Positions 28,070 to 39,822 of a stretch of DNA of 64,000 nucleotides are shown piece by piece. The notes below the pieces were generated by a model. It saw only the letters and a program-made list of their open reading frames with translations. It ran no database searches and was not told the origin of the DNA. The position numbers and the translations under genes were made by a program. The DNA lies in contig NZ_JACIDT010000010.1 in the NCBI RefSeq assembly GCF_014196495.1, forward strand, positions 1-64,000, in the 5' to 3' direction. The first letter of the stretch is position 1. Every line of letters begins with the position of its first letter. The DNA is from Sphingobium jiangsuense (GTDB taxonomy: Bacteria > Pseudomonadota > Alphaproteobacteria > Sphingomonadales > Sphingomonadaceae).

Positions 28070-29017
28070 ATGACCATATATCGCATCGAAGAACTGGTCT
28101 TCGGGGTCGAGGACCGTGCCGCCTGCGCCCGGTTCCACGCCGATGCCGGGCTGGACCCGGTCGTGCTGGACGGGGAGGGGCCGGACGGGGAGGGGGACGC
28201 GGATGTCTTCACCACCCCCGAAGGCCAGAGGATCATCCTCAAATCCATTGGCGATCCGTCGCTGCCGCCCCCGGCGGAGGCAGGGTCCGGCCTGCGCGAG
28301 ATCGTCTGGGGCGTGGGCGATCGCGCCGGGCTGGACCGGATCGCCGGGGATCTGGCGCGGGACCGGGCGGTGCAGGTGGATGGGGAAGGCGTCGTCCACA
28401 GCCGGGACGAAACCGGTTTCGGCATCGCCTTCCGGCTGCGGCGGGAGCGGCAGGTCGCGACAGAGCCTTTGCCGCGCGTCAACTCCGTCCGGCAGGTCCA
28501 GCGCTGGAACGACCCGCCGCTGCTGCCCGGCACGCGGCCGCGCCCGGTGCGGATCGTCCATCTGGCGCTCAACATCCCGAAGGCGGGGCATCGCGAGGCG
28601 ATCGATTTCTACCTCCGCCGCCTGCGCTTCCGCGCGACCGACGATATCGCGGACACCGGCACCTTCATGCAGTGCGAAGGGGATGTGGAGCATCACAATT
28701 TCTTCCTCTGCCACCGGCCGGACAGCGCGGGCATCAACCATTTCGCGCTGGAAATGCGTCATTTCGACCAGCTTATCGAGCGCGGCAACCATATGGTGAG
28801 CTGCGGCTGGAGGGAATCGCGCGTGCTGGGGCGGCATCTGCTGGGGTCGAACCTCTACCGCTTCTTCGCCTCGCCAGCGGGCGGGCGGCTGGAATTCGCC
28901 TGCGACATGGACCGCATGGACAAGGACTTCCCGACCCGCCGCTGGGATCGCAACCCCGGCCACCATATCTGGACGCTGAAAAGCTCCGGCATCGGCGCGG
29001 AGGGGCGGAACGGCTGA
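28070..29017 (+). CDS. VOC-family (type I extradiol) dioxygenase, two-domain
   Basis: A 315-residue protein with two vicinal-oxygen-chelate domains. The first is degenerate (IEELVFGVEDRAACARFHAD); the second has the expected metal ligands, His in VHLALNIPKAGH, His in GINHFALEMRHF and Glu in GGRLEFACDMD. This is the layout of 2,3-dihydroxybiphenyl-type extradiol dioxygenases, which open catechol rings next to the diol. The C-terminus HHIWTLK matches the paralogue at 38941-39822 (HHLWMLK). A GGGGGGAGGG ribosome binding site precedes the ATG. The substrate is unknown; the neighbouring Rieske oxygenase suggests an aromatic ring. Confidence 0.85.
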   Translation: MTIYRIEELVFGVEDRAACARFHADAGLDPVVLDGEGPDGEGDADVFTTPEGQRIILKSIGDPSLPPPAEAGSGLREIVWGVGDRAGLDRIAGDLARDRAVQVDGEGVVHSRDETGFGIAFRLRRERQVATEPLPRVNSVRQVQRWNDPPLLPGTRPRPVRIVHLALNIPKAGHREAIDFYLRRLRFRATDDIADTGTFMQCEGDVEHHNFFLCHRPDSAGINHFALEMRHFDQLIERGNHMVSCGWRESRVLGRHLLGSNLYRFFASPAGGRLEFACDMDRMDKDFPTRRWDRNPGHHIWTLKSSGIGAEGRNG

Positions 29018-29126: not shown

Positions 29127-30170
29127 ATGACCACATTCGTCCGCAACAGCTGGTATGCCGCCGCCTGGGTGGACGAGGTGGGCGACGCGATGGTGGCGCG
29201 GCGCATATTGGGGGAACCGCTGGTCCTCTTCCGCAGCGCCGACGAGGGCATCGTCGCCCTGCTCGACCAGTGTCCGCATCGCCTGCTGCCCTTGTCGATG
29301 GGCGTGGTGGCCGAAGGGCGCATCCAGTGCGGCTATCATGGGATAGAGTTCAACGGCGCCGGACGCTGCGTGCGCGTGCCGGGTCAGGACATGATCCCTC
29401 CCACCGCGAAGGTGCGGACATTCCCGGTGGTCGAACGCTTCGGCCTCGTCTGGGTGTGGATGGGCGACGAGGAGGCCGCCGATCCGGCGCTGCTGCCCGT
29501 GGTGGAGCGCTATGGCGCGCCGGGCTGGGCGCTGCTCGACGGCGGCTATCAGCATCATGCGTCCAACTATCGCAACATCATCGAAAATCTGATGGACCCG
29601 GCGCACACCACCTTCGTGCACAAGGGCACGATCGGCAATCCCGCCGCGACCGACGAGCCGGTGAAGGTCGGCAAGCTGGACGGCGGGCTGGTCGCCTATC
29701 GCTGGGTCGAGAATTCGCCGCCTTCGCCATTCGACCGGCTGGTGATGGAGGTGACGGGCAGTGTCGATCGCGGGCAGTTCTTCTATTATTATCTGCCGGG
29801 CACCTCCTGCGTCGACATCATCTCCATCCCCGCCGGGACGGAGCGGGAGGACGAGGTGATGGACGCGAAGGGCATGCGGGCGTTCAGCTACAAGTTCCTG
29901 ACGCCGGAGGACGAGCGCAACACCCATTTCTTCTGGCTGCACCTGCGCAATTACCGACTTGAGGACGAGGAATGGGCGGCGGGGTTGCGCGCCAATCTCG
30001 ACAAGACCTTTCTGGAGGACGCGGTCATCGTCAAGGCGATCCAGGACGAGCAGGACCGCACCGGCCTGCACCAGCGCACCGCGCTGGCGATCGACCGCGC
30101 GCCGGTGATGGCGCTGGCGATGCTCGACAAGATGGTGCGGGAGGAAGGCGCCGCCGTTGCGGCCGAATAA
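29127..30170 (+). CDS. Rieske [2Fe-2S] aromatic oxygenase, VanA/DdmC type
   Basis: A 347-residue terminal oxygenase. The Rieske centre is C49-P-H51 (DQCPHRLLP) and C68-G-Y-H71 (IQCGYHG). The mononuclear iron site is NLMDPAHTTFVH with His160 and His165. The size and type match vanillate O-demethylase VanA and dicamba O-demethylase rather than the large ring dioxygenases, so O-demethylation or monooxygenation of a substituted aromatic acid is the likely reaction. It needs an electron-transfer partner; the VanB-like ferredoxin at 57256 and SIP reductase at 57552 are candidates within the window. The ATG follows GAGGGAGAGAG. Confidence 0.9.
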   Translation: MTTFVRNSWYAAAWVDEVGDAMVARRILGEPLVLFRSADEGIVALLDQCPHRLLPLSMGVVAEGRIQCGYHGIEFNGAGRCVRVPGQDMIPPTAKVRTFPVVERFGLVWVWMGDEEAADPALLPVVERYGAPGWALLDGGYQHHASNYRNIIENLMDPAHTTFVHKGTIGNPAATDEPVKVGKLDGGLVAYRWVENSPPSPFDRLVMEVTGSVDRGQFFYYYLPGTSCVDIISIPAGTEREDEVMDAKGMRAFSYKFLTPEDERNTHFFWLHLRNYRLEDEEWAAGLRANLDKTFLEDAVIVKAIQDEQDRTGLHQRTALAIDRAPVMALAMLDKMVREEGAAVAAE

Positions 30171-31645: not shown

Positions 31646-32993
31646 TCAGACCGCGTCGGCCTTTTGCCGGTAGGCGGTGCGCGCATGCTCGTTATAGGGC
31701 GAGGGCGCGACCGTGGCGCGGATGCGGGGGAAGCCCAGATCGGCGTCGGCCGGGGTGCCGGGGCCGGGATGCTCGCCCCACAGCACCTCGACCTGCGTGC
31801 CCGGCTCGGCATAACGCTCGTCCACCAGCGACAGCGCCAGCACGGTGCCGACCGGGGTCGATGAAGCCGGTGTAGAAGGTCATGCCCGCCAGCGCGCCGC
31901 CCGAGCCCTCGATCCGGTAGCGGGCATAGCTCAGCACATAGCCGGGATCCTCGCCCATCACCCGCTTCACGTCGTCGAGGTCGAACACCAGCGTCACCTT
32001 CCTGCGGTGGACGCCCTCGCGCGCCTTTTCCAGCGCGTCGCGGCCGATGAAGTCATGGTTGAACGCGATCGACTTGCCATAGCCCAGTTCGAAGGGGGAG
32101 GTGTAGTAATCCTCGATATTCTCGGAAAAATAGCTGCCGTGCAGCGGCTTTTGCCCTTCGAAGGAAAAGAGGCTGATCGACCGGCGATACTCCTCCAGCT
32201 CCGGCGCGGAATAGATGGCCGGGGTCGGCGTCGGTATCCAACCGCTTTCGATGCCGTTGGTGAAATAGGCCTTGCCGCCGACATGGACGAGGCCGAACGC
32301 TTCGCCCGCTTTCATCAGCGCATCCTTGACCGCCGCGCCGTCTTCCCAGTCGCCGATGAACTCATAGCCCGCCTGTCCCGCCATGCCGTGGCGGAAGGCG
32401 CGGAACGACCGGCCCGCCAGCGTCACCGGCGTCGAGTGGAAGAATTTGGTCTGCGGCAGTGGCCCGCCAAAGGCGCGGGCGACCAGATCGAGCGCCAGGG
32501 GCCCCTGTATCTGGTAGCGGAACAGCTTCGGCCCGCCTTCCTTGCGGACGCCCGAATCCGGGTCGAAGCTCCAGCTGACGTCATAGCCGCCTTTCTTCGC
32601 ATGATAGGCGACCCAGTTCTGCGCGGCGGGAACGCCGGAAAGCACATAGCTTTCCTCCCCGCTGCGCATCAGCACGCCGTCGGTGATCAGCAGGCCCTGC
32701 TGCGTCACCGGCACGAACTGCTTGGCCTGGCCGACGACGAAATTCTCGTAATTATTGGCGCTGACCTCCATCAGCAGGCGGCGGGCATCGGGCCCTTCGA
32801 TGAAAAGGTCGGACATATGGTGGGAGAGGTCGGAAATGGCGACCGACGCCCGCCACGCCATCTGCTCCTCGCGCCAGCCGACATATTCCGGTTCCACCAC
32901 GGGGACGGTCCAGTGCCGGGCATTGGGTTTCCAGAGCAGCCCGATCGGCGAGCCCGCCTTGTCGATACCGTCCTGTAGGCTGGGGGGATTCAT
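31646..32993 (-). pseudogene. LigM/DesA-type THF-dependent O-demethylase (GcvT family), frameshifted
   Basis: In frame from the ATG at 32993 (MNPPSLQDGIDKAGSPIGLL) the protein follows the aminomethyltransferase fold of LigM/DesA, which moves the methyl group of vanillate or syringate to tetrahydrofolate. Recognisable are SVAISDLSHHMSDLFIEGPD, RYQIQGPLALDLV, MAGQAGYEFIGDW and ELGYGKSIAFNHDFIGRDAL. At 31854-31857 a run of four G (plus strand) has one base too many. After it the family's C-terminus (VLALSLVDERYAEPGTQVEV then FPRIRATVAPSPYNEHARTA) continues in another frame to the stop at 31646. Without the extra base the product would be 448 residues, near family length. As read, the protein loses its true last ~70 residues. 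It may be a real inactivation or a sequencing error. Confidence 0.85.
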
Positions 32994-33316: not shown

Positions 33317-34186
33317 ATGGGGAAGGCCGTTGCCCGCTTGCTGGACGACTATTCGCTGGAAGCGACCGCGAAGGATATCGATGCGCTGGAACAGGCGGCG
33401 CCCGCGCTGCGGCCGGGAACGCTCGTTTCCGTGCCCTGGCTGCCCGCCGAAACCATGGCGGCGCGGTGCGCGGCGGCGGTCGCCATCCGCCGCCTGGGCT
33501 TCACGCCGGTGCCGCACATCGCCGCGCGCCGGGTGAAGTCGCGGCAGGCGTTGCAGGACTTTCTTGCCCGCTGCACCGGCGAGGCGCGGGTCGATCATCT
33601 GCTCGTCATCGCCGGGGACAGCGCCGAGCCGGAGGGCCCCTATCGCGATGCGCTCGCGGTGATCGAAAGCGGGCTGCTGGCCGATCATGGCATCGCCGCC
33701 GTGACCGTTTCGGGCCATCCCGAAGGGCATCCCGCCATCGGCCGCGAGGCGCTGATGCGCGCGCTTCAGGACAAGAGCGCGGCGCTTGGCGCGCAGGGCA
33801 TGGACTGCCGGATCGCCACCCAGTTCGCCTTCGACGCCGACGCGATCCTGCGCTGGCTGGCGGAGATACGCGCGGCGGGCATCGGCCATCCGGTCAGGAT
33901 CGGCGTGCCGGGCCCCGCCTCGATCAAGGCGCTGCTGCGCTTCGCCGCGCTGTGCGGGGTGGAGGCGTCGACCAAGGTGCTCGCCAAATACGGGCTGTCG
34001 CTGACGCGCCTGATCGGCACGGCCGGGCCGGACCGGCTGGTCGATGCGCTGGAGGCGCGGCTGGACGGCGATGTGCATGGGCTCGTTCAGGCCCATTTCT
34101 ACCCCTTCGGCGGCATAGGACGCACCGTGCAGTGGGCCGTGCAATGGGCCGCCGCCCGGCAGTCAGCCGCCGAGACCGCCGCTTGA
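33317..34186 (+). CDS. metF: Methylenetetrahydrofolate reductase family protein
   Basis: A 289-residue TIM-barrel flavoprotein of the MTHFR family. Family-like segments are LVSVPWLPAE, FTPVPHIAARRVKS, HLLVIAGDSAEPEGPY, VTVSGHPEGHP and FAFDADAILRWLAEIRAAGI, then RIGVPGPASIKALLRF. It would interconvert 5-methyl-THF and 5,10-methylene-THF. Beside a LigM-type demethylase (which produces 5-methyl-THF) it would oxidise the methyl group back, as proposed for the ligM-metF pair of sphingomonads. Divergent from the LigM-like gene; purU follows 49 bp downstream. Confidence 0.88.
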   Translation: MGKAVARLLDDYSLEATAKDIDALEQAAPALRPGTLVSVPWLPAETMAARCAAAVAIRRLGFTPVPHIAARRVKSRQALQDFLARCTGEARVDHLLVIAGDSAEPEGPYRDALAVIESGLLADHGIAAVTVSGHPEGHPAIGREALMRALQDKSAALGAQGMDCRIATQFAFDADAILRWLAEIRAAGIGHPVRIGVPGPASIKALLRFAALCGVEASTKVLAKYGLSLTRLIGTAGPDRLVDALEARLDGDVHGLVQAHFYPFGGIGRTVQWAVQWAAARQSAAETAA

Positions 34187-34235: not shown

Positions 34236-35087
34236 ATGCCCCAATCCCATATTCTCACCTTGTCCTGCGAAGACCGGCCCGGCATCGTCGCCGAGGTCAG
34301 CGGCCTCATCTTCCGCCATGGCGGCAATATCCTGGACGCGCGGCAATTCGACGATCACCAGACCGGCCTGTTCTTCATGCGGGTGCTGTTCGAAAGCGAG
34401 GAAACCGGCATCATGCTGCACTCCGCCATCGCCGACATGGCGTGGCGGCGGGAGATGAACTGGCGGCTGTCCCCGGAAAAGAGGCGGCAGAAGGTAATGC
34501 TGATGGTCAGCAAATTCGACCATTGCCTCGGCGACCTGCTCTATCGCCACCGCATCGGCGAGCTGGACATGGAGGTCGTCGGCATCCTTTCCAACCATCC
34601 GTTGTCGGCGCTGCGCATCACCGATATCGGCGATATTCCCTTTCACCACCTGCCGGTGACGAAGGAAACAAAGCCGCAGCAGGAGGCGCGGATCAAGGCG
34701 CTGGTCGAGGAAAGCGGCGCGGACCTCGTCGTGCTGGCGCGCTATATGCAGATATTGTCGGACGACCTGTCCGCCTTCCTCGCCGGGCGCTGCATCAACA
34801 TCCATCACAGCTTCCTGCCCAGCTTCAAGGGCGCGAAACCCTATCATCAGGCGCATGCGCGCGGGGTGAAGATGATCGGTGCGACCGCCCATTATGTGAC
34901 CGAGGACCTCGATGAAGGGCCGATCATCCATCAGGATGTCGAGGCGGTCACCCATGCGGATTCGCCGGAGGATCTGGTGCGCAAGGGCCGCAACATCGAA
35001 CAGCGCGTGCTCGCGCAGGCGGTGCGCCTGCACTTGCAGCAGCGGGTGCTGCTCAACGGCCGCAAGACGGTGGTGTTCAGCGACTGA
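34236..35087 (+). CDS. purU: Formyltetrahydrofolate deformylase
   Basis: A 283-residue enzyme releasing formate from 10-formyl-THF to regenerate THF. An N-terminal ACT domain (LTLSCEDRPGIVAEVSGLIF) is followed by a formyltransferase-like domain with the active-site segment INIHHSFLPSFKGAKPYHQA and HYVTEDLDEGPIIHQD (Asn, His and Asp of the family). Its placement next to metF and a LigM-like gene fits a one-carbon recycling module for O-demethylation (the equivalent in SYK-6 is called ligH/purU). Start MPQSHILTL. Confidence 0.93.
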   Translation: MPQSHILTLSCEDRPGIVAEVSGLIFRHGGNILDARQFDDHQTGLFFMRVLFESEETGIMLHSAIADMAWRREMNWRLSPEKRRQKVMLMVSKFDHCLGDLLYRHRIGELDMEVVGILSNHPLSALRITDIGDIPFHHLPVTKETKPQQEARIKALVEESGADLVVLARYMQILSDDLSAFLAGRCINIHHSFLPSFKGAKPYHQAHARGVKMIGATAHYVTEDLDEGPIIHQDVEAVTHADSPEDLVRKGRNIEQRVLAQAVRLHLQQRVLLNGRKTVVFSD

Positions 35088-35202: not shown

Positions 35203-36099
35203 ATGGACAGGCTGGCGACCATGGCGACCTTCGTCCGGGTGGTGCGCAACGGCAGCTTTGCCGGAGCGGGCGGCGAAACCGGCATTTCGCGCGCGCTGGT
35301 GTCGCGCCATATTTCCGATCTGGAGGCGCATCTGGGCGTCCGGCTGCTCAACCGCACCACGCGATCGGTGACGCTGACCGAGGCGGGCAAGCATTATTAT
35401 GAAAGCTGCCTGCGCGTGCTGGACGAGGTGCGCGTCGGCGAGGAAGCGGTGCAGACCATGCAGTCGGCGGTGGAGGGGAATATCTCCATCATCGCGCCCA
35501 AATGGGTCGGCTATCTGGAGGTCAGCGCCGCGCTGGCGCAATTCTGCAACCGTTTCCCCAAGGTCAATGTGCATCTGACGCTGGGTGGCCTGTCGACCAA
35601 GATGCACGATTTCCTCGATCGCGGCTTCGATGTCGCCTTCCAGACGAAGAAGCTGCCGGATTCGGGCATCCGCGTGAAGAAGATCGCGGACATATCCTAC
35701 GCCACCTATGCGTCCCCCGGCTATCTGGAGAAGAACGGGGTGCCCGCCAGCCCGCAGGATCTGGAGCATCATGCCTGCCTGATGCAGGCGATGGACGCGA
35801 TCTGGCGCTTCACCCGCGACAGCGAGGTGTTCACCGTGCGCACCCCGCCGCGCTTTTCGTCGAACAGCTATGCGGTGCTGTGCATGACCGCGCTCAACGA
35901 TCTGGGCGTGACAGTGGTGCCGCAACGGGTCGCCGACAGCTTTTCCGGCGGCGGCGGGCTGGTGCGCATCATGCAGGACTATGAACTGGAGGACCGCCCG
36001 CTCTACGCCGCCTATGCGCCGGGCGGCACCCCGCCGCGCAAGGTACGGGAACTGCTCGGCTTTCTGGGCGAATGGTTTCGCGAGCATCCGCTGAAATAG
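35203..36099 (+). CDS. LysR-family regulator (paralogue of the 54698 gene)
   Basis: A 298-residue LysR-type regulator. The N-terminal winged helix (TFVRVVRNGSFAGAG, SRALVSRHISDLEAHLGV, RLLNRTTRSVTLTEAG) is followed by a substrate-binding domain. It shares its whole layout, including RALVSRHI-DLEAHLGVRLLNRTTRS and the C-terminal AAYAPGGTPPRKVRE, with the regulator at 54698-55594, so the two are close paralogues. It probably controls the adjacent catabolic genes in response to an aromatic compound. A GAGGAGGAAGGACAAGG ribosome binding site precedes the ATG. Confidence 0.92.
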   Translation: MDRLATMATFVRVVRNGSFAGAGGETGISRALVSRHISDLEAHLGVRLLNRTTRSVTLTEAGKHYYESCLRVLDEVRVGEEAVQTMQSAVEGNISIIAPKWVGYLEVSAALAQFCNRFPKVNVHLTLGGLSTKMHDFLDRGFDVAFQTKKLPDSGIRVKKIADISYATYASPGYLEKNGVPASPQDLEHHACLMQAMDAIWRFTRDSEVFTVRTPPRFSSNSYAVLCMTALNDLGVTVVPQRVADSFSGGGGLVRIMQDYELEDRPLYAAYAPGGTPPRKVRELLGFLGEWFREHPLK

Positions 36100-36320: not shown

Positions 36321-38597
36321 TCAGAACCGGAAGCCCGCCGTCACGCCATAGGTGCGGGGCGCGGCCTGGACGCCGTTGTCGCTGAAATTACTGGCGCCCA
36401 GCTGCTGGAAATAGAAGGCGTTGGTCAGGTTCTTGCCCCAGACGCTGAACGTCAGGCCGCTCTGGGCCCGCCAGCTCAATGAGGCGTCGAGCAGGTCATA
36501 GGAACCTTGCGCCACCCGGTTGTCAGGGTCGGCCGCCCAGCCGTCATTATGATAATAGTTGGCGCCGATGGTGAAATCACCGATCGAGGTCGGGATGTCG
36601 TAGGTCGCGCCGAGGCTGAGCGTCCAGTCGGGCACGTTCTGCAACCGCTTGCCGCTGGCGTCGCCGATGGTCAGCGTGTTGCCGCCCGCCGCATTGGGGA
36701 TGGAGATCACCGCCGTATCGAAATTCTTGTAGCGGGCATGGGTGACGTTGACGCCGCCGGTCAGGGTCAGCCCGCCGAACGGGCGGATCTGAAAATCGGC
36801 GTCGACGCCGTAAATCTCTGCCCCGTCGGCATTGTAGACCGTCTGGATGCCGTTCTGGATCTGCATGACCTGAACGTTCTTCTGGTCGTAATAATAGCCG
36901 GCGACGTTGAAGCGCAGGCGCCGGTCGAACAGGTCGGTCTTCAGACCGACTTCATAGGCGTCGACGATTTCCGGCTTCAGCACCTTGTTTTCCAGCGGGG
37001 TGTTGAGCCCGATGTTCTGCGCGACGAAGGCGGCGCTGCGGAAGCCCCGGTTGTAGCTGGCATAGGCCATCATCTCCGGCGAGAAGCGATGGTCGATCGA
37101 CAGCCGCCACGTCGCGCGAGGGAAGGTCTTGCGGTAGGATTCGATGACCCCCTGTGGGAAGGTCTGCACCGGCAGCGGCTGGCCGGTGGTCGCGCTGTAG
37201 GTGATGCGGGAGCCGACCGCGCGGCGCTGGTCGCGGGTATAGCGAATGCCCGCGGTGACGTTGGTGGCCTCGCCGAGGCGATAGGTGCCCTGCGCGAACG
37301 CCGCCATGGATTGCAGCGTCTGCTTCACCTCCAGATCGGTGTAGGAGCGCTGCACATTGGTCTGGAACGCGTTGACGTTCCGCGACGGCTCGTAGCGGCC
37401 TTCGCCCCACATGTAGAATCCGCCGAGTACCCACTGGAAGCGGCTATCATTGTCGGACAGCAACTGCACCTCATGGGTCAGCTGCGTGTCGATCTGGTTG
37501 TTGTCGATGATGAAGCCGTGGGAAAAGCCGAGCGGCGGCGCGTTGGCGGCGGGAACGGCCGCCCAGTCGCCCTCGGTCGTGCCGTCCGGGTCGAAGCTGA
37601 CGCGCAGCTTCATCTTGCGATAACCGGTCAGGCTCATGAAATCGACGGTGCCGAAATCATGGCGCAGCTCCACGCTGCCGCCATATTGGCGCGAGCGCAG
37701 CGTGGGATCGATGTCGGAATCGATGTCGCGGCGCCCGCCGTCGGCGAACTGCCCGCGCACATTGCGGGTGAGCGGACGGAAGGCCGGGCTCGCGGCGTTG
37801 ACGCGGGAGAAATCGGCCGAGAGGGTCAGCGAGCTGGCGTCGTCTATCTCCCACAGCAGCTTGGCGCGACCCGCATAGGACTTTTCGGTCATTATCTCGT
37901 TGCCGGTGTTGACGTTCACGCCATAGCCGTCGCGGCGATTGTCATATTTGAACGCGACGCTGGCGGCCAGATTGCCGGCGAGGCCGCCCGAAAGATAGGC
38001 GCTGCCGCCGATGGTGTCGTAATTGCCGTAGCTGGCCTTGAAATCGCCGGTCAGGTCGTAGGACGGCTTCTTCGTCGTGATCTGGATGAGGCCGCCGGTC
38101 GCGTTGCGGCCGAACAGCGTGCCCTGCGGCCCCTTCAGCACCGCAACCTGCTCGATATCGTTGAGCGTCATCATCGCGCCGGTGGCCGAGCCGATATAGA
38201 TGCCGTCGATATAGGTCGCGACCGGGTTCTCGATGCCCGGCCCGGTGCCGGTCGAGCCGACGCCGCGGATGCGCGGCAGGCCGAAGCCGCCGACCGCGGT
38301 GTTGAAATTGAGGCTGGGGGCGACCGCCTTCAGGTCGGAGGTGTCGCGCACGCCCGTCGCTTCGAGCGTTTCGGCGTTCAGCGCGGTGACGGCGATCGGC
38401 ACGTTCTGCATGCTTTCCGCGCGCCGTTGCGCGGTGACGACGATATCCGCGATGCCGATCGGGGCGGCGCTTTCCTGCGGATCGACGGCTTGCGCCCATG
38501 CCGGTGTCGAAAGGGCGGACGCCGCGAAAAGGCCGGCCATCACCAGACGCCTGCGCGTGCCGTGTCCGGATGCAATATGGAATGACGCCATCCCCAT
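36321..38597 (-). CDS. TonB-dependent receptor
   Basis: About 758 residues, an outer-membrane active-transport receptor. The signal peptide ends near ALSTPAWAQA, followed by the TonB box-like IADIVVTAQRRAES and the plug domain (GVGSTGTGPGIENPVATYID, LFGRNATGGLIQI). A 22-strand barrel with many aromatic-ended strands follows and the C-terminus is YGVTAGFRF, with terminal Phe. In this catabolic block it probably imports an aromatic or sugar-linked substrate. Three in-frame starts exist (38627 TTG, 38612, 38597); 38597 and 38612 both have GGGAGAC upstream, so the exact start is uncertain by five residues. Confidence 0.92.
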   Translation of the reverse strand: MGMASFHIASGHGTRRRLVMAGLFAASALSTPAWAQAVDPQESAAPIGIADIVVTAQRRAESMQNVPIAVTALNAETLEATGVRDTSDLKAVAPSLNFNTAVGGFGLPRIRGVGSTGTGPGIENPVATYIDGIYIGSATGAMMTLNDIEQVAVLKGPQGTLFGRNATGGLIQITTKKPSYDLTGDFKASYGNYDTIGGSAYLSGGLAGNLAASVAFKYDNRRDGYGVNVNTGNEIMTEKSYAGRAKLLWEIDDASSLTLSADFSRVNAASPAFRPLTRNVRGQFADGGRRDIDSDIDPTLRSRQYGGSVELRHDFGTVDFMSLTGYRKMKLRVSFDPDGTTEGDWAAVPAANAPPLGFSHGFIIDNNQIDTQLTHEVQLLSDNDSRFQWVLGGFYMWGEGRYEPSRNVNAFQTNVQRSYTDLEVKQTLQSMAAFAQGTYRLGEATNVTAGIRYTRDQRRAVGSRITYSATTGQPLPVQTFPQGVIESYRKTFPRATWRLSIDHRFSPEMMAYASYNRGFRSAAFVAQNIGLNTPLENKVLKPEIVDAYEVGLKTDLFDRRLRFNVAGYYYDQKNVQVMQIQNGIQTVYNADGAEIYGVDADFQIRPFGGLTLTGGVNVTHARYKNFDTAVISIPNAAGGNTLTIGDASGKRLQNVPDWTLSLGATYDIPTSIGDFTIGANYYHNDGWAADPDNRVAQGSYDLLDASLSWRAQSGLTFSVWGKNLTNAFYFQQLGASNFSDNGVQAAPRTYGVTAGFRF

Positions 38598-38940: not shown

Positions 38941-39822
38941 TCAATCCTGCCCGTTTGTCTTGAGCATCCAAAGATGATGGGGCGGGCTGGTTTCCCAGTG
39001 ACGGTGCGGCTCTTCCTTGCGGACCTGATCCATGTCCGCGACATATTCGAACCGCCCGCCCATGGGCGTGGCGAAGAAGCGGAATATGTTGGACCCGACC
39101 GTGTGACGGCCCAGCCGCCGGGTTTCCTTCCACCCCTGGCTGACCAGATGGTTGCCGCCTTCCACCACCTCGTCGAAATCGCGCACCTCGAAGGCGACAT
39201 GGTTGGTGCCCTTGCGGTCGGTGCGGTGGCAGAGGAAGAGCTGGTGATGATCCGTCTCGCCCTCGGCTTGCAGGAAGGTGCCGGTGGGCGCGATGGTCTC
39301 CACCGCCTTGAACCCCAGCCGCCCGGTGTAGAAGGCCACCGCCTCGTCCTTGCCCTGCTTCGGTATGTCGAGCGCGACATGGGCGATGCGCAGCGGGCGG
39401 GCGCGGCCATAGGTGCCGAGCCGGTCGTTCCAGCGCTCCACCTGTCCGAAGCTGTTGACCGGCCGCCGCTCCGCCGTGGGCGTTTCGACGCTTGCCAGCC
39501 GGAAGCCGATGACGAAGCCGGTTTCGTCGCTGGTCAGGAAGCCGCCGTCCGGCTCGTCCACGACCGCGCGGTCGCGTGCCATTTCCGCGCGGATCGCGGC
39601 GAGGGCCTGCGCCGTATCGACGCCCCAGACGATGCGGGCGATGCCGCTTTCCTCGCCTTCCCCGGCGGGATCGATGGCGATGACCTGCCCGGTGCCGGTG
39701 GCGAAGCGCGCGGCATGGCCGTCCGGCTCCAGCGGCCGCAAGCCGAAATCCGCGCAATAGCGGGCGGGGGCGTCGATATCGGCGACATGGTAGAGGACTT
39801 CCTCGGTCCTGATGATGGTCAT
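38941..39822 (-). CDS. VOC-family (type I extradiol) dioxygenase, paralogue of the 28070 gene
   Basis: A 293-residue protein with two VOC domains. The second domain keeps the metal ligands: His in IAHVALDIPKQGK, His in GTNHVAFEVRDF and Glu in GGRFEYVADMD. It is homologous throughout to the 28070-29017 protein (RIVWGVDTAQAL vs REIVWGVGDRAGL; ETSPPHHLWMLK vs HHIWTLK), so a duplication followed by divergence is likely. It would cleave a catechol-type ring. GGGAGAAGAGAG precedes the ATG at 39822. Confidence 0.85.
   Translation of the reverse strand: MTIIRTEEVLYHVADIDAPARYCADFGLRPLEPDGHAARFATGTGQVIAIDPAGEGEESGIARIVWGVDTAQALAAIRAEMARDRAVVDEPDGGFLTSDETGFVIGFRLASVETPTAERRPVNSFGQVERWNDRLGTYGRARPLRIAHVALDIPKQGKDEAVAFYTGRLGFKAVETIAPTGTFLQAEGETDHHQLFLCHRTDRKGTNHVAFEVRDFDEVVEGGNHLVSQGWKETRRLGRHTVGSNIFRFFATPMGGRFEYVADMDQVRKEEPHRHWETSPPHHLWMLKTNGQD

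Follow-up and report, generated by a model that had tools for sequence, protein, structure and literature searches.

The window, which is the whole stretch of 64,000 nucleotides of Sphingobium jiangsuense DNA that was analysed, carries a demethylase gene interrupted by a one-base frameshift together with metF-like and purU genes, a LysR-type regulator and a Rieske oxygenase (Table 1). Translation in frame 0 from the ATG at 32993 gives a 433-aa product with its stop at 31692-31694, and this product departs from the family sequence past '...TFYTGFID', at about residue 377. The shifted frame continues the family sequence as PVGTVLALSLVDERYAEPGTQVEVLWGEHPGPG...YRQKADAV to a stop at 31646-31648, and the final 70 codons of the gene are open in this other frame down to the normal stop. 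A homology-free frame-change detector independently placed a switch at 31856. No second frameshift or internal stop was found within the demethylase gene. The sequence-only reading of this DNA had described a LigM-like gene with a one-base frameshift and with its one-carbon partners intact. The frameshift was confirmed, with GGGG at 31854-31857 and the family C-terminus in the other frame, and metF and purU were both found to be open, as was the Rieske oxygenase gene. Runs of exactly four are common on the forward strand of the window (209 of G and 141 of C, 350 in total) and the four-base run at the frameshift is therefore, as such, not special. A scan of the locus for promoters and terminators returned nothing useful.

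Table 1. Features of the demethylase locus in the window, and the second gene set of the same genome.
Feature	Position	Strand	Basis or remark
Glyoxalase-fold (VOC) protein	28070-29017		flanks the cluster
Rieske oxygenase (VanA_C)	29127..30170	+	closest solved relative DdmC; with the demethylase in four Sphingobium clusters
LigM/DesA-like gene, frameshifted (GcvT-fold, folate-dependent O-demethylase type)	31646..32993	-	GCV_T match; two frames jointly span the whole ortholog
Detached C-terminal coding part, open in the shifted frame, normal stop	31646..31853	-	71.2% identical to L033 at the amino-acid level
Out-of-frame tail of the frame-0 product, to the premature stop	31692..31853	-	low model confidence
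Frameshift site, a four-G run on the + strand (coding strand CCCC)	31854..31857	.	8/8 orthologs in one frame here
metF-like gene	33317..34186	+	PF02219, 33.6 bits; adjoins the demethylase in 8/9 orthologous loci
purU, formyltetrahydrofolate deformylase	34236..35087	+	TIGR00655, 332.1 bits vs cut-off 285.95; 8/9 loci
LysR-type regulator	35203..36099	+	kept in the cluster, 8/9 loci
TonB-dependent receptor-type protein	36321..38540	-	named from sequence alone; ~70% to copies in four Sphingobium clusters
Glyoxalase-fold (VOC) protein	38941-39822		flanks the cluster
Second full set: DesA, alpha/beta hydrolase-like ORF, metF, purU, folD	L068 3297-8237 (contig C26)		

The frame-0 product matched the folate-binding domain GCV_T (PF01571) with 120.9 bits against a cut-off of 25.6, and the solved chains closest to it were those of the vanillate/3-O-methylgallate O-demethylase LigM (5tl4 and 5x1i, 304.8 bits or about 305, residues 3-346). 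The scores against the curated equivalog models were lower than their cut-offs in the window gene and in its intact relatives alike. For the LigM model (NF047885, cut-off 580) the frame-0 product scored 362.9 and three intact orthologs 393.8, 402.8 and 418.1, and for the model of the syringate O-demethylase DesA (NF047633, cut-off 800) the scores were 377.1 and, in three intact orthologs, 415.4, 415.9 and 417.6. The Pfam model GCV_T_C found no match in the three intact orthologs scanned or in the window, and since it is missing from intact orthologs too its absence in the window proves nothing.

In a midpoint-rooted FastTree phylogeny of 44 rows, the window gene and its orthologs, 12 rows from 10 distinct genomes, formed one clade on a long stem with a local support of 1.0. 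All 12 rows of the clade have Val at an aligned column where Arg occupies 28 of the 32 other rows, including the DesA of this genome, and where the four non-Arg rows outside the clade have Ile, Pro, Gly and His. We take this column to be Arg122 of LigM, the residue holding the substrate carboxylate. Tyr was present in 44 of 44 rows, the window included, at the column that presumably corresponds to the catalytic Tyr247 of LigM. The window gene shares with LigM the GcvT fold and the presumed catalytic Tyr, while it differs in having Val for Arg122, in its lost C-terminus and in its score below the equivalog cut-off; it is likewise of the same family as DesA, although its clade is separate and the three intact orthologs scored lie below the cut-off of 800.

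Of the LigM-like identity first assigned to the gene, the part that stood was that of a folate-dependent demethylase gene of the LigM/DesA type, while the gene is not LigM proper, as the curated cut-offs were missed and the Arg is absent. The gene should not be filed as LigM or DesA, though its product would be expected to work like an enzyme of that kind. With the cut-offs missed and Val in place of Arg, vanillate and syringate may be a wrong choice for an assay, and the Val residue hints at a substrate lacking the usual carboxylate.

Predicted structure models were compared for an intact ortholog and for the frame-0 product. The ortholog model had a mean pLDDT of 75.0 and was weak in two stretches, 406-419 and 440-444; in it the part that is lost from the window gene forms three strands (382-390, 399-404 and 421-428) and a helix (432-442) of the C-terminal domain. 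The mean pLDDT of the frame-0 model was 66.3 and its foreign tail had values of 23-52 per ten-residue block beyond residue 370. A complete C-terminal domain is a trait of the LigM/DesA O-demethylases and is lacking in this product, in which the family frame is lost after residue 377 or so. Both models are of modest confidence by these means; judging from them, the frameshifted product is likely to be misfolded or inactive.

Orthologs were sought in named genomes by a pattern-based search, which identified 12 loci, eight of which (L033-L040) were at 68-73% identity and came from one metagenome genome labelled Gammaproteobacteria (L033), three Sphingobium and four Novosphingobium genomes; a ninth genome with an ortholog, G046, was also a Sphingobium. 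One continuous ORF of 442-444 aa passed through the frameshift site in all eight close orthologs, and the ortholog of G046 was uninterrupted as well (442 aa), leaving the gene intact in nine of nine genomes. Taken whole, the frame-0 product was 67% identical to the L033 protein. Identity to L033 was 72.9% over the 376 residues before the shift and 71.2% over the 66 residues after it when these were read in their own frame. Differences from L033 per site at codon positions 1, 2 and 3 were 0.184, 0.165 and 0.479 before the shift and 0.273, 0.091 and 0.500 after it. The equal conservation on either side, along with the excess of third-position differences, points to a recent break, with selection having acted on the tail, in the frame proper to it, until very recently.

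Genomes closer to the sequenced strain were also sought. The search found no other genome of this species, the nearest ortholog being only 73% identical, and a DNA search that took in the strain's genome together with 93 more from its genus gave near-full-length matches in 4 of the 93 and no close strain. Among plasmids, none of 34 records in the DNA search covered 80% of the query and none of 241 in the protein search reached at least 60% identity, with remote homologs only in both.

The neighbours of the demethylase gene were for the most part conserved along with it, and L033 was the sole locus of the nine in which the metF-like, purU and LysR regulator genes were not next to the demethylase. 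This locus, which holds the nearest ortholog, had no metF or purU match within its 13 kb, and a mislabelled genome or a transfer is possible in its case. A folD gene followed purU in L034, the one relative scanned for it, and none was present in the window cluster. The two VOC proteins that flank the cluster are 48% identical to each other, and a homolog near the intact demethylase in L033 is 52% identical to the one at 28070-29017; they are possibly ring-cleavage enzymes of the same pathway.

The closest solved chain to the metF-like product was 7xg9 with 296.9 bits, far above the next MTHFR chain with 45.8. We read 7xg9 as the structure of S6MTHFR, a MetF homolog from S. lignivorans SYK-6, and the window MetF is probably of the type that oxidises methyl-THF. 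The SYK-6 homolog runs in the oxidising direction in a strain described as lacking the glycine cleavage system (PMC12585457), whereas the window copy of metF adjoins purU and a glycine cleavage P-protein is encoded in the genome.

Two more relatives of the demethylase gene, at 44% and 41% identity, were found in the genome on contigs C26 and C11. The C26 copy passed both curated cut-offs, scoring 859.3 against 800 for DesA and 623 against 580 for LigM, and the C11 copy passed neither (549.4 and 543.1). The C26 copy belongs to a second full set of genes (Table 1) in which folD was assigned by family search, purU and the alpha/beta hydrolase-like gene were recognised from ORFs, and the metF-like gene is 53% identical to that of the window. 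Genes for folD were located on contigs C1 and C26. In N. aromaticivorans, LigM and DesA have been described as partly substituting for each other on vanillate (PMC8091115). By analogy, with an intact DesA alongside metF, purU and folD in this genome, the loss of one paralog may be tolerated.

On balance we lean towards a third, dispensable LigM/DesA-type paralog in which a single inserted base has recently abolished function in the sequenced strain. The intact enzyme would transfer the methyl group of a methoxy-aromatic to tetrahydrofolate, after which oxidation of methyl-THF by the metF-like neighbour would give methylene-THF, a FolD whose gene lies elsewhere in the genome would carry this on to formyl-THF, and PurU would yield formate and THF. 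The succession from methyl-THF through methylene-THF and formyl-THF to formate follows from the known reactions of these enzymes. Translation of the interrupted gene would give about 377 correct residues followed by about 56 unrelated residues, and with its normal last 70 residues lost the product would probably have the misfolding or inactivity suggested by the models. We infer the reaction and the substrate, and likewise that the organism itself carries the extra base, that it can do without the gene and that the product is inactive.

The two options left live by the sequence-only reading, a recent loss and a sequence error, were both supported, and an isolated sequencing or assembly error in a gene that is intact in the organism is a substantial possibility, though the lesser of the two. 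Such an error would fit a downstream part that, read in its own frame, keeps full conservation and a proper stop, a gene otherwise unbroken, orthologs that are intact in all nine genomes, and intact metF and purU partners. The absence of further decay in the gene suits a very recent break and an error alike, and because the nearest ortholog is merely 73% identical an isolated assembly error is indistinguishable from a real mutation by comparison with relatives. Against an error, a run of four bases is no hard homopolymer in a window with 350 G or C runs of that length, and the genome has a completeness of 100 and a contamination of 0.24.

The other evidence against an error was a frame-model scan that took in the window and, in all, 838,127 bases or 17% of the genome. 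Five frameshift-like calls were made under the strict rule and four of these, on our reading, were ordinary gene junctions or an antisense call, such that no other true frameshift was found in the 838 kb and only the 31856 site remained. In a control under the loose rule 49 of 54 planted insertions were found, with 66 of 120 draws unusable as the drawn ORF was not coding according to the model. Controls under the strict rule, with 250 draws each and in ORFs of at least 900 bases, recovered 92 of 119 planted insertions when these lay 250 bases or more inside the ORF ends and 72 of 116 when the distance was 100 bases or more. The survey is informative yet incomplete, with between about a quarter and about two fifths of the planted insertions going undetected, and the absence of other frameshifts is therefore no proof of a clean assembly. 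An assembly ridden with indels was rejected on the survey and its planted-insertion controls.

Four relatives were scanned under the strict rule over 400,000 bases, where three of five calls read like true frameshifts (two in G046 and one in G051) and two like junctions, on our reading. Breaks of this kind are thus common among these bacteria or in the assemblies made of them, with fewer, if anything, in this genome, although the frameshifts read in the relatives could themselves be errors. The weight given to a real mutation was kept despite the weaker strict control because of these three frameshift-like breaks. The survey favours a real mutation without deciding a single site. The break in G051 lies on contig C69 near 70153 (position 30153, minus strand, of the joined stretch L092, L083-L085), where a flavin-monooxygenase-like gene close to a like cluster is seemingly frameshifted.

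It had also been proposed that the demethylase was lost since the neighbouring Rieske oxygenase took over demethylation, which we regard as very improbable. An O-demethylation role for the oxygenase is plausible from its VanA_C domain and its closest solved relative, the dicamba O-demethylase DdmC (189.9 bits). However, an ortholog of 61-63% identity is present in the cluster with an intact demethylase in four of four Sphingobium genomes, where the two look like long-standing partners, and a replacement of one by the other therefore finds no support. The intact DesA of the genome is a closer substitute. The partnership is also not general, as no Rieske gene turned up in the 13-kb loci of L033 and the four Novosphingobium genomes, whose flanks may be too short to include it.

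A functional shift, by the phase variation that had been suggested at the run or by programmed +1 frameshifting yielding a full protein, is scarcely credible. All that favours it is that both frames are open and that CCC-C could in principle allow the ribosome to slip. Against it, the run is of only four bases without a long repeat or homopolymer tract, and 8/8 orthologs are in one frame without the run (tract in 0/8), indicating that a slip site is not conserved.

As a frameshift the case is ordinary, whether a redundant catabolic gene has recently broken or a single base is wrong. Its interest is that the gene is not a vanillate demethylase and marks a separate clade with a conserved cluster of metF, purU and a LysR regulator, joined in Sphingobium by a TonB-type receptor and a Rieske oxygenase. 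We tentatively propose, as an idea that may well prove wrong in its full extent, that this clade, found in the window and nine other genomes, represents an uncharacterised type of folate-dependent O-demethylase acting on methoxy-aromatics that lack the usual carboxylate. Its Sphingobium members would work in tandem with the DdmC/VanA-like Rieske oxygenase inherited alongside them, both acting on a single substrate that carries more than one methyl ether, the folate half having just been lost in the sequenced strain. A literature search returned no title or abstract opening that was recognised as describing the clade, which is no proof of its being unpublished. The THF-dependent dicamba demethylases Dmt, Dmt50 and Dmt06 are of the same enzyme type (PMC9404685); no entry named Dmt was among the matches listed in the plasmid searches.

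A second, remote gene of the demethylase type (28-30% identity) was observed in three of the four Novosphingobium loci, at 1420-2742 in L038, 900-2198 in L039 and 917-2197 in L040. The L038 copy matches GCV_T and has a metallo-beta-lactamase-fold gene following it.
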